A program made the translations under genes and the position numbers. A stretch of 64,000 bases of DNA from assembly GCF_037201815.1 (NCBI RefSeq), contig NZ_CP147407.1:1364001-1428000 (forward strand), given 5' to 3'. Position 1 is the first letter of the stretch. Each line of letters starts with the position of its first letter. Shown piece after piece: positions 13,954 to 18,822 of the stretch. The notes under the pieces are model-generated. The model saw only the letters and a list, made by a program, of their open reading frames with translations. It did no database searches and was not told where the DNA came from. Source of the stretch: Metabacillus sp. FJAT-52054 (lineage in GTDB: Bacteria; Bacillota; Bacilli; Bacillales; Bacillaceae).

Positions 13954-14475
13954 TCACCCATTGATCCAAAGTATTTCTCCGCACTTATTTTCACTGTCCA
14001 AATCCACATTAAACTGATGTTTTTTATAGAAATGAACGAGGCGGTCAACGTGATCCCAGTCCCGTTCTGCAATATCCCCGACAATGTATGGAATATTGTT
14101 TTGGCGTGCCTTTTGCTTCAGGTAATTCATACAAATAGAGCCATATCCTTTGTTGGAAGGACCTTTAATGTCCCCTATTTTAATGGTGTCGTCTGTTTTG
14201 TAGGTTGCCTGTATGCTGAAGTCCCACATTCCTTTATAGGCAGTCTCGCAATCATTTATCATGATTTTACACGCATTTCCATCATCTATTGCGTGGACAA
14301 TCACCCATTTATCCTCACTCGTCTGGTCAATGCCGAGCACTTCGCCTCTGCCGTTTTTAGCAATATCTTTGATGTTTGCCTGCATTCTGAAAAGCTGCAT
14401 CTCCAGCTCTTCTTTTTCCTCCAGTATCTCTTCTGCGTCCTTTTCCTCTTCAGGTCTGGTATCCGCGAGAAGCAT
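13954..14475 (-). CDS. GNAT-like hypothetical protein with N-terminal coiled coil
   Basis: A 173-aa protein. The first 35 residues are highly charged and helical (repeated EEKEE). The rest looks like a diverged acetyltransferase: a strand-rich middle, the turn SNKGYGSICMNYLKQKARQ in the position of the acetyl-CoA loop, and a terminal HVDRLVHFYKKHQFNVDL resembling the last GNAT strands. The start at 14475 follows AAAGGAGG. Assignment to GNAT is by pattern only; substrate unknown. Confidence 0.6.
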   Translation of the reverse strand: MLLADTRPEEEKDAEEILEEKEELEMQLFRMQANIKDIAKNGRGEVLGIDQTSEDKWVIVHAIDDGNACKIMINDCETAYKGMWDFSIQATYKTDDTIKIGDIKGPSNKGYGSICMNYLKQKARQNNIPYIVGDIAERDWDHVDRLVHFYKKHQFNVDLDSENKCGEILWING

Positions 14476-14626
14476 GATATGCGCCTCCTTTTTTAAGAAA
14501 TAATTCTAAATCTACAATCTATCTGCATGGAATCAGAGAAAAATCTTGAGCCCATATGCCGTTCGGTAACACACACAATTTTATAATTTTAAGCTGTGTT
14601 AAAGCGCTATGATGATTTTTTAACAC

Positions 14627-14703
14627 CTGTTGATTGGAGTGGAAGGCGTGAGACTCCTGTGGGAGCAGCGGGACAGGTGAGACCCCGCAGGCGCAAAGCG
14701 CTG
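14627..14703 (+). repeat. Left half of dispersed palindromic repeat, split by the IS110-family element
   Basis: It starts with CTGTTGATT and carries GGCGTGAGACTCCTG, AGCAGCGGGACAGGTGAGAC and CCCGCAGGCGC. Its right half is at 16337-16387, where AATCAACAG mirrors the left end. Joined, the two give a 128-bp imperfect palindrome. I recall such units as common in Bacillaceae genomes. The preceding 14476-14626 shows nothing else. Confidence 0.85.
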
Positions 14704-14822
14704 AGTTATCATGAACGAAACTAGCCCCTTACTCGTAAAATCGTAGGTTGATTTGGTTAGACTGTTTTTGTCAAACAAAACAAAACCAAATCAGAGCTAC
14801 ATTACGGAAGGAGCTAGCTATT

Positions 14823-15935
14823 ATGCAGGATACCATTAAATACGTAGGTTTAGACGTATCAAAAGAAAATATTGCCGTTGCGGTCGCAGAAGAAGGACGG
14901 GAAGCACCGAGATACTGGGGGGTCATTCCTCATACGCCTGAAGCCGTAAAAAAATTGATGAAGAAGCTGGGCAGCCCAAAGTCCCTTCGTGTCTGTTATG
15001 AAGCCGGTCCTACCGGATATCCGTTATACAGACTATTACTAACATTGAACATTCATTGTTCAGTGATTGCCCCAACTCTTATTCCGAAAAGGCCTGGAGA
15101 TCGAATTAAAACCGATCGCCGAGACTCTGTTCGTCTGGCTCAATTATATCGGGCTGGGGAGTTAACGTCCGTTTATGTTCCTACTCCAGAAGACGAAGCC
15201 CTTCGGGATCTGGTACGTTGCCGGGAAGATGTGAAAGAGGATGAGTTAAGGGTGAAACACCGGTTAAGCAAATTTTTACTACGCAACGATATTAAGCCAC
15301 CGGCAGGTGTAAATAAGTGGACCAACAAGTACTTCAGATGGCTGGATACCCTTCATTTTGAGAATTCTTCTTTGCGGGTTACGTTTCAGGAGTACTATTA
15401 TCAGCTTAAAGAAATCGGTCAAAGACTCTTAAGGCTGGAAGAAGAAATTCGGGTTCACTCAAATGAAGGGGTACATGCCCGGAAAATTCAGGCCCTCCAA
15501 TGTTTGAGAGGTGTTGCCCTTGTCACCGCCTCGAGTGTTGTGGCAGAAATAGGTTCGTTTAAACGATTCCCAACCCCTAATCACTTCATGGGGTATGTCG
15601 GGTTGATTCCAAGCGAATATTCGAGTGGAGAAAGCAGACGGCAAGGAAATATAACCAAGACAGGAAATCGGCATGTACGACGGTTATTGGTCGAAGCCGC
15701 TTGGAGTTACCGATATAAGCCTGCGGTTAAAGGAGAATTGGCACGAAGACAAAGTGGACAATCTCCGACCATTCAGGCCATATCCTGGAAAGCACAAAAT
15801 CGCCTTCATCAAAAGTATTACCGCTTACTATCCAGAGGAAAAGAGAGCAGTAAAGCCATAACAGCTGTAGCGAGAGAGTTAGCTGGGTTTATTTGGGCCG
15901 TGATGCAAGAAGTCGAAGATGTCCCAGAATCGTAA
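14823..15935 (+). CDS. IS110-family DEDD transposase/recombinase
   Basis: A 370-aa recombinase. The N-terminal RuvC-like DEDD domain is intact: YVGLDVSKE (Asp), VCYEAGPTG (Glu), and IKTDRRDSVRLA (Asp, Asp). The C-terminal transposase_20 domain has GVALVTASSVVAEIG, GYVGLIPSEYSSGES with the candidate catalytic serine, and RRQGNITKTGNRHVRRLL. It is full length with no frameshift, so the element may be active. The start at 14823 follows GGAAGGAG; an upstream in-frame reading from 14748 crosses non-coding sequence. Family members act with a non-coding bridge RNA that recognises donor and target DNA. Confidence 0.93.
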   Translation: MQDTIKYVGLDVSKENIAVAVAEEGREAPRYWGVIPHTPEAVKKLMKKLGSPKSLRVCYEAGPTGYPLYRLLLTLNIHCSVIAPTLIPKRPGDRIKTDRRDSVRLAQLYRAGELTSVYVPTPEDEALRDLVRCREDVKEDELRVKHRLSKFLLRNDIKPPAGVNKWTNKYFRWLDTLHFENSSLRVTFQEYYYQLKEIGQRLLRLEEEIRVHSNEGVHARKIQALQCLRGVALVTASSVVAEIGSFKRFPTPNHFMGYVGLIPSEYSSGESRRQGNITKTGNRHVRRLLVEAAWSYRYKPAVKGELARRQSGQSPTIQAISWKAQNRLHQKYYRLLSRGKESSKAITAVARELAGFIWAVMQEVEDVPES

Positions 15936-15975
15936 AAAGATGTCGTGATCCTGACGTGTTGTAGACCGATTCAAA

Positions 15976-16193
15976 ATAGAATAGGGAGAATAGGGCTCGA
16001 AGGCAAAGAGTAAAACCGGAAAGGAAAATCCACGCGCCTCCTCTGTGCTAGTCCCATGTGGATGAACGCACGTCCCGAGTTTGTGGAAAAGTCCTTTATA
16101 CGGAAAGATAAAATGTGAGAACCCACGAATATCAGAGTGCTAACCGCCGTTGAAATTTTTGCCTTCGTGCCGTGTCCTTCCTGTCTATTCTAT
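15976..16193 (+). ncRNA. Candidate bridge RNA (seekRNA) of the IS110-family element
   Basis: Two nested basal stems bracket the segment: ATAGAATAG (15976-15984) with CTATTCTAT (16185-16193), and CGAAGGCAAA (15998-16007) with TTTGCCTTCG (16158-16167). Inside lie two internal-loop hairpins. The first has outer stem TCCAC/GTGGA (16029-16033/16083-16087) and inner stem TGTGC/GCACG (16044-16048/16068-16072), leaving two 10-nt loop strands. Strand 16034-16043 matches the bottom strand of the target repeat across the junction at 9 of 10 positions. In the second, GATAA (16107-16111) and ATATCAG (16129-16135) flank a small GTG/CAC stem and match the element's joined ends. Target loop before donor loop is the known bridge RNA order. 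Exact 5' and 3' ends are unknown. Confidence 0.75.
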
Positions 16194-16247
16194 AAACAAG
16201 AAAGGAATTATATTCAGTCGCTGCCTGTCAAATAAAACACAAAAAAA

Positions 16248-16270
16248 GAAGCGAAATACGCTTCTCTTCT
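16248..16270 (+). terminator. Hairpin near the right end of the IS110-family element
   Basis: AGAAGCG / CGCTTCT stem with a 4-nt loop after an A-run and before CTTCTT. It may end transposase or bridge-RNA transcription. The T-tract is imperfect. Confidence 0.4.
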
Positions 16271-16336
16271 TAAAGCTGTTCAAAAACAAAGTAAAACATT
16301 AGGTTGCAGGGGGCTCTTGAAAGTTTCGTTCATATC

Positions 16337-16387
16337 AGGAGGCTCACCGCCCCACGGAAAACGAACGCCTGCAACGGAAATCAACAG
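16337..16387 (+). repeat. Right half of dispersed palindromic repeat
   Basis: AGGAGGCTCACCGCC opens this part and GGAAATCAACAG closes it. The last nine bases mirror the left end at 14627-14635. See the left half. The remaining 16388-16590 is AT-rich leader of the AraC-type gene with no feature I can support. Confidence 0.85.
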
Positions 16388-16590
16388 CTAAGTTTAACAA
16401 AAATATATTCTACAAAAAATGAGACAGAAATTCAAATTGCATGCGAAAAAGATTTTTTCTTTCAAAACCTATACGGTACAGGGGATTAGGGCAATATTTC
16501 TTGATCAAGAGAATAATAAATTGAAGGATTTGGAAGCGGGTTAATCGAAAATATAGAACAAAAGACAGATTGCAAAAGGGGGCAGCAGGG

Positions 16591-18822
16591 ATGTGGAAAA
16601 ATAAATTCTTCCGGACTCTTTTATATTCATTTTGCTTCATTATCTTAATTTATTCCGTGGGCACTCTTGCTGTCTATTATTCGAAAAATATGGAAATCAG
16701 CCGGGTCGAGCGAAGCAGCAGCCAAAAACTGCTTTTGCAGCAGGCCCAGGATATGATGGATCAGCGAATTCAAGTGGCTCTTAATGGAATGATTCAGCTG
16801 GAAACGAGTGAAGCCTTCAAAGATTATACGGATCTCGCCCGCTCTGACTTAAAGTATTATCACATGGGGAGGGTCCTTCAGGAGATTCAGCGAAATAAAA
16901 CCGCTTTTTCTAACTATGACTATGATATAGCTCTAATGCTGCAGGATGACAGTACCGTGATAACCTCCAGCTATACGATGTCTGCGGACAATTTTTTCAA
17001 AGAGCTTTCTATGACGAATGAAGCTAAGCGAAAGTTTGAAGCTTTTGCTAAGGATTCGAGCTGGTCAAGCTACTTTGAAACCATTACGCTAACAGGAACG
17101 GAACATTCCGATACTCTTACATTAGTAAAAAAATATCGGGTAAGCACCGCTAAAACCGTCCTGTTTTTTCTCTCTTTTAAGAAAATGAATTTGCTCCCCG
17201 AAGCATTTGAAAACCAGGATGATGCACTGATGATCGTTTCAGGGACAGAAGTGTTTTCGCTGGATCAAAAGAAGAAGGAAGGACTGATTTTAAAGGGGAA
17301 CGTTACAAAAGAAATTAATCGCAAAAATGAGCAGATTCCCGCTTATTACAAATTTGAGGAAGATGGCTATATTATACACTCCATTGGATCCAAAAGCCTC
17401 AAGGGTCTTAGCTATGTGTATATCACACCTAAGATTGCACCGCAAACTGATCAAAATAGCCAATGGCTCGCAGCTGCCCTTATTCCTGCACTTTTACTTC
17501 TTGCGGGAATCCTGATGGCTTGTGTTCTCATTTGGAATACGTATAAGCCGGTTCATAAAATGGTTGCAGCATTAAAAGAGGAGTATCCGATGAAGGCAGG
17601 AGAAGATGAATTTGTCTTTGTTCAGGCAACGGCTCTGCGTATGAAAGAGGTTAATCATGAACTCACGAATGTGATCAAACAAAGTGAAGTTCCTCTTAAA
17701 ATGAAATTTTTATGGGATGTGCTACATGGCATTGCTGCAGAAAAGGTCATTTTAAAAGGAATCAGCCAATTTCGAATGTCCCAATACGAGGAGAGGACGG
17801 TTGTATCGATTATCGAATTCGATTACAGCAGTGTCCGCTTGCTCAATGAAGGAAGAACAAAACTAGGCAGGCAGGCGGTTAAGCTGTTAGAGGATGTATT
17901 GGGGGAGGGGATTCCATTTGAAATGGTCGAGCTTGCCCCGGGGAAATCCGCATTAATTACAGCAAGCCTTTCTGTTTCAACATTGAAAGAGAAGCTTTCT
18001 GCGGCTCTGATGATTGTAGACCGGGAAATCAGTCAATACATTACCGTTTCCATCGGACAGGAAGTAAAGAGCTTATATGAGCTGGACCAATCATTTCAGC
18101 AGGCGTCCGAGGTATTGGAAAACAGGCTTTCTATGGAAAAAAAGCAGATTTTAAGCTGGGATGATTTGTCTCTTAAACAAAAACGATCCTTTTTTTATCC
18201 GTTAGAGGTCGAAAAAGAACTCATTCATTATTTTGTTCAGGGTAAAAAGGAGGAAGCGTTTCAAATTCTGAATCGGATTCTTGAAGAAAATCTTGAAGAA
18301 AAGAATCTTGATAAAGCAGCACTCTCTCAGTTTGTCTTTGCTATGGCAGGAACCGTTAACCGAATTGTTCAGTCATCGGCAAGGGTGCCGGGGGATGAGA
18401 TGCTGCATTTGGAGATGAGTGCCATTCGGGATCGGGAAACGCTGAAAGGTGAAATAGTGAAAACTTTCACAAGTGCTTCCGATCGAATCTCATCAGCCCT
18501 GCCAGGTCCATCGGCTGCGAGCCGGATTGTCCGGTATATCCAGGGGCACTACAGCAAAGACCTTTCCCTTCAGGATTTATCTGAACACTTTCAGCTAACT
18601 CCTAGTTATATCAGCACCATATTTAAAGAATATACCGGGGAAAATTATAAAGAGTATTTAAATCGTTTTCGAATTGAAAAGGCAAAGGAACTTCTTGCAG
18701 GAAAAAATATGAAAGTAAATGAGGCGGCAAGGCTGGTTGGCTATAACAATGTAAATACGTTTATCCGGATCTTTAAAAAATACGTAGGATTATCACCCGG
18801 GCAATATGAAAAAACAGACTAA
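16591..18822 (+). CDS. AraC-family regulator with membrane sensor domain, YtdP-like
   Basis: A 743-aa one-component regulator. An N-terminal transmembrane helix (about 8-30), a long extracytoplasmic sensor region and a second helix (about 290-315) anchor it in the membrane. The C-terminal 100 residues are a complete double helix-turn-helix AraC domain (SRIVRYIQGHYSKDLSLQDLS through RLVGYNNVNTFIRIFKKYVGLSPGQY). B. subtilis YtdP and YesS have this layout. The start at 16591 follows AAAGGGGG. The next four genes encode a carbohydrate ABC importer and a YesL protein, so it probably senses the imported sugar or a derivative and activates that cluster. A terminator separates it from the transporter genes. 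Confidence 0.88.
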   Translation: MWKNKFFRTLLYSFCFIILIYSVGTLAVYYSKNMEISRVERSSSQKLLLQQAQDMMDQRIQVALNGMIQLETSEAFKDYTDLARSDLKYYHMGRVLQEIQRNKTAFSNYDYDIALMLQDDSTVITSSYTMSADNFFKELSMTNEAKRKFEAFAKDSSWSSYFETITLTGTEHSDTLTLVKKYRVSTAKTVLFFLSFKKMNLLPEAFENQDDALMIVSGTEVFSLDQKKKEGLILKGNVTKEINRKNEQIPAYYKFEEDGYIIHSIGSKSLKGLSYVYITPKIAPQTDQNSQWLAAALIPALLLLAGILMACVLIWNTYKPVHKMVAALKEEYPMKAGEDEFVFVQATALRMKEVNHELTNVIKQSEVPLKMKFLWDVLHGIAAEKVILKGISQFRMSQYEERTVVSIIEFDYSSVRLLNEGRTKLGRQAVKLLEDVLGEGIPFEMVELAPGKSALITASLSVSTLKEKLSAALMIVDREISQYITVSIGQEVKSLYELDQSFQQASEVLENRLSMEKKQILSWDDLSLKQKRSFFYPLEVEKELIHYFVQGKKEEAFQILNRILEENLEEKNLDKAALSQFVFAMAGTVNRIVQSSARVPGDEMLHLEMSAIRDRETLKGEIVKTFTSASDRISSALPGPSAASRIVRYIQGHYSKDLSLQDLSEHFQLTPSYISTIFKEYTGENYKEYLNRFRIEKAKELLAGKNMKVNEAARLVGYNNVNTFIRIFKKYVGLSPGQYEKTD

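Follow-up and report, generated by a model that had tools for sequence, protein, structure and literature searches.

Insertion sequence and transposase

A complete IS1111-type insertion sequence was located at 14704-16336 of the window, the 64,000-nt stretch analysed here (G000:C1:1364001-1428000 of a 4.13-Mb genome). Coordinates below are those of the window.

14627..14705, + strand: left half of the interrupted dispersed repeat, CTGTTGATT... up to the AG core; repeat multicopy in the genome
14704..16336, + strand: IS1111-type insertion sequence; bounds include 7 nt beyond the left subterminal inverted repeat (sTIR) and 3 nt beyond the right one
14706..14710, + strand: left donor end TTATC, adjoining the AG core at 14704-14705
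14711..14722, + strand: left sTIR ATGAACGAAACT, perfect 12-bp inverted repeat with 16322-16333
14823..15935, + strand: DEDD transposase/recombinase gene, 370 aa from MQDTIK, with Pfam and IS621/ISCro4 matches
16322..16333, + strand: right sTIR AGTTTCGTTCAT, perfect 12-bp inverted repeat with 14711-14722
16334..16338, + strand: right donor end ATC (16334-16336) and AG core (16337-16338)
16337..16387, + strand: right half of the interrupted dispersed repeat, AGGAGGCTCACC...AATCAACAG; repeat multicopy in the genome

Extensions of 7 and 3 nt outside the sTIRs are a trait of the IS1111 family, and they were included when the element bounds were set, which we take to be the published convention. The transposase was matched to the Pfam families DEDD_Tnp_IS110 (1.4e-17) and Transposase_20 (2.2e-22), the two being PF01548 and PF02371, and to the solved recombinases IS621 (8wt6; 7.8e-11) and ISCro4 (9t56). 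Residues D11, E60, D98, D101, G260, L261, P263, S268, and G269 were invariant across 12 relatives, and the stretch GLIPSEYSSG fits the GL-P----SG motif. We take D11, E60, D98, and D101 to be the DEDD set; these acidic residues and the SG of GLIPSEYSSG are presumably the catalytic residues, following work on IS621. Between the stop codon and the end of the right sTIR lies a non-coding stretch of 398 nt.

A DEDD recombinase, sTIRs, a long 3' non-coding region, and precise insertion without target duplication, the features by which IS1111 membership was judged, were all found, and the element is an autonomous IS1111-type insertion sequence. Two 2024 papers define the bridge RNA/seekRNA kind (PMC11187229 and PMC11208160). 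The sTIRs of 12 bp fall within the 7-17 bp given for the IS1111 group (PMC11208160), and insertion without duplication is described for ISEc21 of the IS110 family (PMC11187229). The distribution of the transposase was patchy, with close relatives in 8 of 80 genomes of the family (E 1e-60), in 22 of 397 genomes of the order (1e-90) and, with alignment, in 18 of 398 genomes of the class (1e-100).

Genomic copies and insertion site

The genome carries four copies of the element. Between the sTIRs, two of the others have exactly the sequence of the one in the window, and the third shows 2 differences in 1623 nt, one of them within the donor guide. All four interrupt one dispersed repeat of ~130 bp, each at the same point. 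A 20-mer of this repeat was matched 42 times in the genome (≤ 2 mismatches), and 17 uninterrupted repeat copies fit a stricter pattern spanning the insertion point. The empty target had been reconstructed in the original prediction, and it proved to be a real allele: G076:C24:109109-109608, from a genome of the same species, is 100% identical to the joined flanks over 500/500 nt. Given this uninterrupted site, insertion of the window copy was recent as well as exact. The element is seen spreading through a dispersed host repeat, which is perhaps a harmless landing site.

The repeat itself has inverted ends (CTGTTGATT...AATCAACAG) and resembles a REP- or MITE-like element. At least 40-44 matches were found in each of six genomes of the genus. 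Rfam returned no match in the locus that holds an intact repeat (L010) or in that of the window element (L005), and four letter strings of the repeat did not occur in a literature search.

Predicted RNA fold

The original prediction placed a bridge RNA (seekRNA) in the non-coding stretch downstream of the gene, with two nested basal stems enclosing two internal-loop hairpins.

15976..16193, + strand: predicted bridge RNA/seekRNA region, 3' of the transposase gene (fold z -5.59; covariation in 59 relatives; outer stem)
15976..15984, + strand: outer basal stem, 5' strand ATAGAATAG; partner CTATTCTAT at 16185-16193, 9 bp, perfect
15998..16007, + strand: inner basal stem, 5' strand CGAAGGCAAA; partner TTTGCCTTCG at 16158-16167, 10 bp, perfect
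16029..16033, + strand: stem closing the target loop, 5' strand; partner 16083-16087 (helix 3)
16044..16048, + strand: apical stem of the target domain, 5' strand TGTGC; partner 16068-16072 (helix 4)
16114..16117, + strand: apical stem of the donor domain, 5' strand TGTG; partner 16124-16127 (helix 7)

Relatives were collected from 119 loci. The transposase frame was missing in six of these, 14 were left out because the two ends were not both present and 10 because they lacked the basal stem motif; identical RNAs were then merged to give 59 distinct relatives.

Read against the sequence, both basal stems (9 and 10 bp) are perfect as predicted. The minimum free energy of the region was -73.6 kcal/mol (z -5.59), and none of 200 shuffles folded as well. 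Across the 59 relatives, 22 of the 39 pairs of the proposed structure showed changes on both sides, and 89.9% of cells were paired as compared to 34.5-50.9% in slid structures, a control in which the proposed structure is favoured because it was drawn partly from the first sequence. On none of five measures of covariation did any of 500 shuffles score as high, though these shuffles ignore relatedness. A chance fold was ruled out by the z score and by this covariation.

Individual helices were supported to different degrees. The inner basal stem (helix 1) was paired in 96.9% of cells, with changes on both sides in 7 of 13 pairs. Helix 3 was paired in 83.1% of cells, its fourth pair being A-U, U-A, or G-C, while helix 4 was paired in 99.0% with three of its five pairs changed on both sides. 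Helix 7 was paired in every cell (100%), and a U-A to C-G exchange was seen in 6 of 59. The outermost stem is poorly alignable and was therefore tested by duplex energy, which averaged -14.3 kcal/mol in the 59 elements as opposed to -8.7 kcal/mol when partners were swapped. The donor domain is closed by a short stem, with 65.0% of cells paired as ACGG/CCGT or 82.5% as the alternative CGG/CCG; an alignment-free search for this stem gave mixed partners. Part of the fold was recovered by RNAalifold run with no structure given, and Rfam returned no match up to E 1 within positions 14000-17000.

Covariance in homologues, proposed with the original prediction as its check, was thus run on 59 relatives, and the stems do covary. 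Conserved, covarying stems, which characterise bridge RNAs and seekRNAs, are accordingly present here. The first (target) internal-loop hairpin stands; the second (donor) is supported in part, since its closing stem is short and incompletely paired.

An RNA model was matched to all 10 elements that had been dropped by the basal stem motif rule and to 20 of 23 further loci, on the gene strand. Two of the 20 were dropped because their ends were missing, and 10 of the remaining 18 were kept as distinct and outside the first set. The model also matched four stretches (L204-L206 in G051 and L207 in G067) at which there was no transposase match at the protein search cut-off. Alignments at L204-L206 are broken or gapped and these look like decayed remnants; of the open reading frames listed at L204, none is an IS110 transposase as judged by sequence. 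L207 keeps the basal stem and lacks the 5' strand of the target loop. No trans-acting orphan bridge RNA is claimed for any of the four.

Target guides

16036..16043, + strand: target guide, 5' strand; columns 16036-16041 track RT+6..RT+1
16074..16079, + strand: target guide, 3' strand; columns 16074-16077 track LT-4..LT-1

As predicted, 9 of the 10 nucleotides in the 5' strand of the target loop (16034-16043, GCGCCTCCTC) are those of the empty target's bottom strand, eight of them contiguous (GCCTCCTC). The right-flank guide (T) matched at 5/5 non-core positions in each of the four genomic copies, and the left-flank guide (B) at 2/4 non-core positions in each. The 3' strand had been described as matching the other side of the target plus the core; its position does track the left flank in relatives, but in this element the match extends to those two of four non-core positions.

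Ends and flanks were extracted by rule, and guides were taken by alignment anchor. Five of the 59 relatives were dropped from the flank test (short or ambiguous flanks), and the other 54 collapsed to 39 distinct guide pairs with 31 distinct T guides. T matched its own flank at an average of 4.62 of 5 non-core positions as compared to 1.93 with the flanks of others, and B at 3.28 of 4 as compared to 1.23 with swapped flanks; none of 20,000 permutations, which ignore relatedness, was as good in either test. Ten guides outside the first set gave 4.30 versus 2.09 for T (0/20,000) and 3.00 versus 1.81 for B (1/20,000). Two of these ten (L164 and L168) have ends resembling those of L137 and L150, elements dropped by the motif rule, and are not wholly new.

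Without preselection of positions, a blind map of 11,760 cells (RNA column by flank position) was also computed. Its six highest cells were 16076/LT-2, 16077/LT-1, 16075/LT-3, 16041/RT+1, 16110/LD2, and 16040/RT+2, that is, five in the target guides and one in a donor guide. Exceptions were few. T scored ≤ 3/5 in three of the 39 guide pairs (L066, L067, L102), B scored ≤ 2/4 in five (the window element L005 itself, L053, L127, L140, L151), and L177, outside the first set, scored 1/5 for T.

Chance guide matches were ruled out by the swapped-flank permutations, the blind map, and the ten further guides. The original prediction had held that its four guide matches were hard to explain by chance and had named insertions with flanks unrelated to their loop strands as the contrary outcome; for the target guides chance is rejected, and the comparison with other copies and relatives returned matching flanks, apart from the exceptions listed. 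The two strands complementary to both target strands, following the target in relatives, that mark a bridge RNA or seekRNA were therefore found. Within a single transposase family, guides differ between elements and address targets that are unrelated. Natural target guides that differ from one another number in the dozens (31 in the main set) and can be read from sequence alone. This natural set shows which guide positions may change, and it offers orthologues with other cores. Variation in the main set and in the ten further guides is also in line with the idea that reprogrammed guides would redirect insertion.

Possible convergence was seen in L157, a relative with a TCATA-type left end whose guide addresses the AGGAGGCT octamer that the window element also targets.

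Putative donor guides

16107..16111, + strand: putative donor guide, 5' strand GATAA; complement of left element end TTATC; 16110 tracks LD2, 16107 tracks LD5
16129..16135, + strand: putative donor guide, 3' strand ATATCAG; same letters as the right end of the element with its core

In this copy ATATCAG is, as claimed, the right element end plus core. The claim that GATAA matches the bottom strand of the left end stood in that it is complementary to TTATC, but the AA that follows is not complementary to the AG core.

Over the 39 guide pairs, the left donor strand matched at 4.05 of 5 positions versus 3.45 with swapped ends (0/20,000 permutations) and the right donor strand (R) at 2.92 of 3 versus 2.87 (568/20,000 as good). 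R equalled the right end at 3/3 positions in 36 of 39 guide pairs, the misses being L066, L102, and L151. It did so again in 17 of 18 further elements, nine of which have the differing end AGC. Right ends other than ATC are rare in the main set and come with their own guide (AAC in L112 and L114, AGC in L123), ATAACAG and ATAGCAG accompanying AAC and AGC, respectively. The match at L117 is too short to show the right donor strand; other separately read elements agree. Column 16110 was the complement of LD2 in 95% as opposed to 54% expected. Columns outside the guides (16081, 16118, 16105, 16106) also track LD2 and the permutations ignore relatedness, a sign that donor type follows clade. The donor strands are complementary to their own ends here, the right strand follows rare ends and the left does so partly, and the covariation of both is confounded with clade. 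The donor half is backed more weakly than the target half.

One genomic copy (L006, G000:C1 ~3049860-3050077) has a C to T change at 16133 inside the donor guide (ATATTAG), while its right end still reads ATCAG. This copy may be impaired.

Interpretation and alternative explanations

The locus very probably represents an autonomous IS1111-type element whose 3' region is a predicted bridge RNA/seekRNA guiding insertion, with a second domain that would read the circle junction. With regard to 15976-16193, the original prediction was largely right: the fold covaries and the target guides follow the flanks, and the donor half is the weaker one.

Another role for the structured RNA or DNA, such as transposase regulation, end recognition, or termination, with guide matches arising from shared ancestry or composition, is very improbable. 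The RNA is strongly self-complementary, so that even the reverse strand scores, and the minus strand has one terminator-like site close by where 0.5 were expected. Such a role leaves unexplained that guide columns vary with the flanks while the neighbouring stems stay paired, that chance matches are rejected by the swapped-flank controls and by the further elements, and that different guides for unrelated targets occur within one transposase family. A division of labour, in which the target half is RNA-guided and the donor ends are recognised mainly by protein via the sTIRs, the donor loop not being a guide, is also unlikely, though less so. It would fit the lack of core complementarity in the 5' donor strand, the weaker covariation of that strand, which is shared with columns outside the guide, and the weak donor closing stem; PMC11187229 also states that IS1111 and IS110 elements may work by different mechanisms, particularly as regards recognition of the ends. 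Against it, ATAACAG and ATAGCAG go with right ends AAC and AGC in several elements, 16110 complements LD2 well above expectation, and the donor topology mirrors the target loop.

Under the bridge RNA reading, the 3' non-coding region would most likely be transcribed into a bridge RNA (seekRNA) that binds the DEDD recombinase. The second domain would recognise the RE-LE junction of the excised circle, 16107-16111 with TTATC and 16129-16135 with ATATC plus AG. The RNA would bring the repeat and the circle junction together within the recombinase, and recombination at the AG core would insert the element into the dispersed host repeat without duplication or loss. Transcription, RNA-protein binding, circle formation, and guided recombination are all steps that we infer.

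Joining the right and left ends gave a promoter-like match of at least 10/12 in 88 of 89 loci, as compared to 9 of 89 in the inserted state; the 89 loci were not made unique, and all of the 64 distinct junctions (64/64) scored 9 or more. No sigma-70-like promoter was found within 15800-16400 of the inserted copy. Because this match appears on joining of the ends, it suggests that the transposase, and perhaps the RNA too, may be transcribed from the excised circle. Circles with a promoter formed at the joined ends are reported in PMC11187229.

Comparison with known systems

The IS1111 seekRNA elements ISEc11, ISPa11, ISKpn4, and ISPst6 (PMC11187229) share with this element a non-coding region 3' of the gene, sTIRs, and the GL-P----SG motif, as well as two target-matching strands, top then bottom, and a promoter formed at the joined ends. 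The position of the RNA 3' of the gene, which had been expected of an IS1111-type element, is thus the same as in these elements. They differ in that the present element belongs to another host clade, its target is a dispersed repeat of this Bacillus genus, and its RNA is predicted from sequence. Natural retargeting is described for an IS110-family relative in the same source.

As in the bridge RNA of IS621 (IS110 group; PMC11208160; 8wt6), the target-binding loop comes first and the donor-binding part second, which bears out the loop order anticipated at the outset; the core is also included in guide pairing, and the recombinases are related (7.8e-11). In IS621, however, the RNA lies 5' of the gene rather than 3', and the element described here has long sTIRs and donor strands in a weakly closed domain. 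PMC11208160 gives a multi-loop as the location of the donor-binding nucleotides in many IS1111 orthologues.

Since the membership features examined are present, donor strands apart, the element is a further, well-supported case of the bridge RNA/seekRNA systems already published and not a new kind. It adds a Gram-positive lineage of bridge recombinases. Among the literature matches listed, no title or abstract start named this element; it may already be catalogued in ISfinder.

Possible mismatch of target and donor cores

Among 93 distinct insertions, 73 had AG at both junctions and three were irregular (L067, L102, L151). In the other 17, the left junction read AG and the right one AA or AT (L125, L126, L131, L132, L133, L134, L140, L143, L144, L146, L162, L164, L167, L175, L176, L178, L181). 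For 16 of them, the 5' target guide contains the complement of the core on the right, in L133 with the register displaced by one base; L134, which has the same RNA as L131 and L132, does not fit. All 17 have a 3' target guide that ends in AG. The flanks of L143, L144, L167, and L176 contain the CTAACGGA motif in uninterrupted form, which suggests that AA may be the target's own core at these four loci.

We therefore raise, tentatively and at somewhat less than even confidence, that target and donor cores differ by a single base in part of the family. If so, one shared core base would suffice, the junctions would resolve one way (left from the donor, right from the target), and the matched-core rule for bridge recombination would be relaxed. 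AG may also be counted as part of the left end, in which case the core mismatch may be a mere matter of naming. Cores changed together in target, donor, and RNA still worked in PMC11208160.

Apart from these core differences, a difference in register was seen in the target loop. In L005, L056, and L058 the core complement lies one base further 5' than in L057 or L090, at similar loop length, and as a result one more base is available for pairing with the left half of the target.
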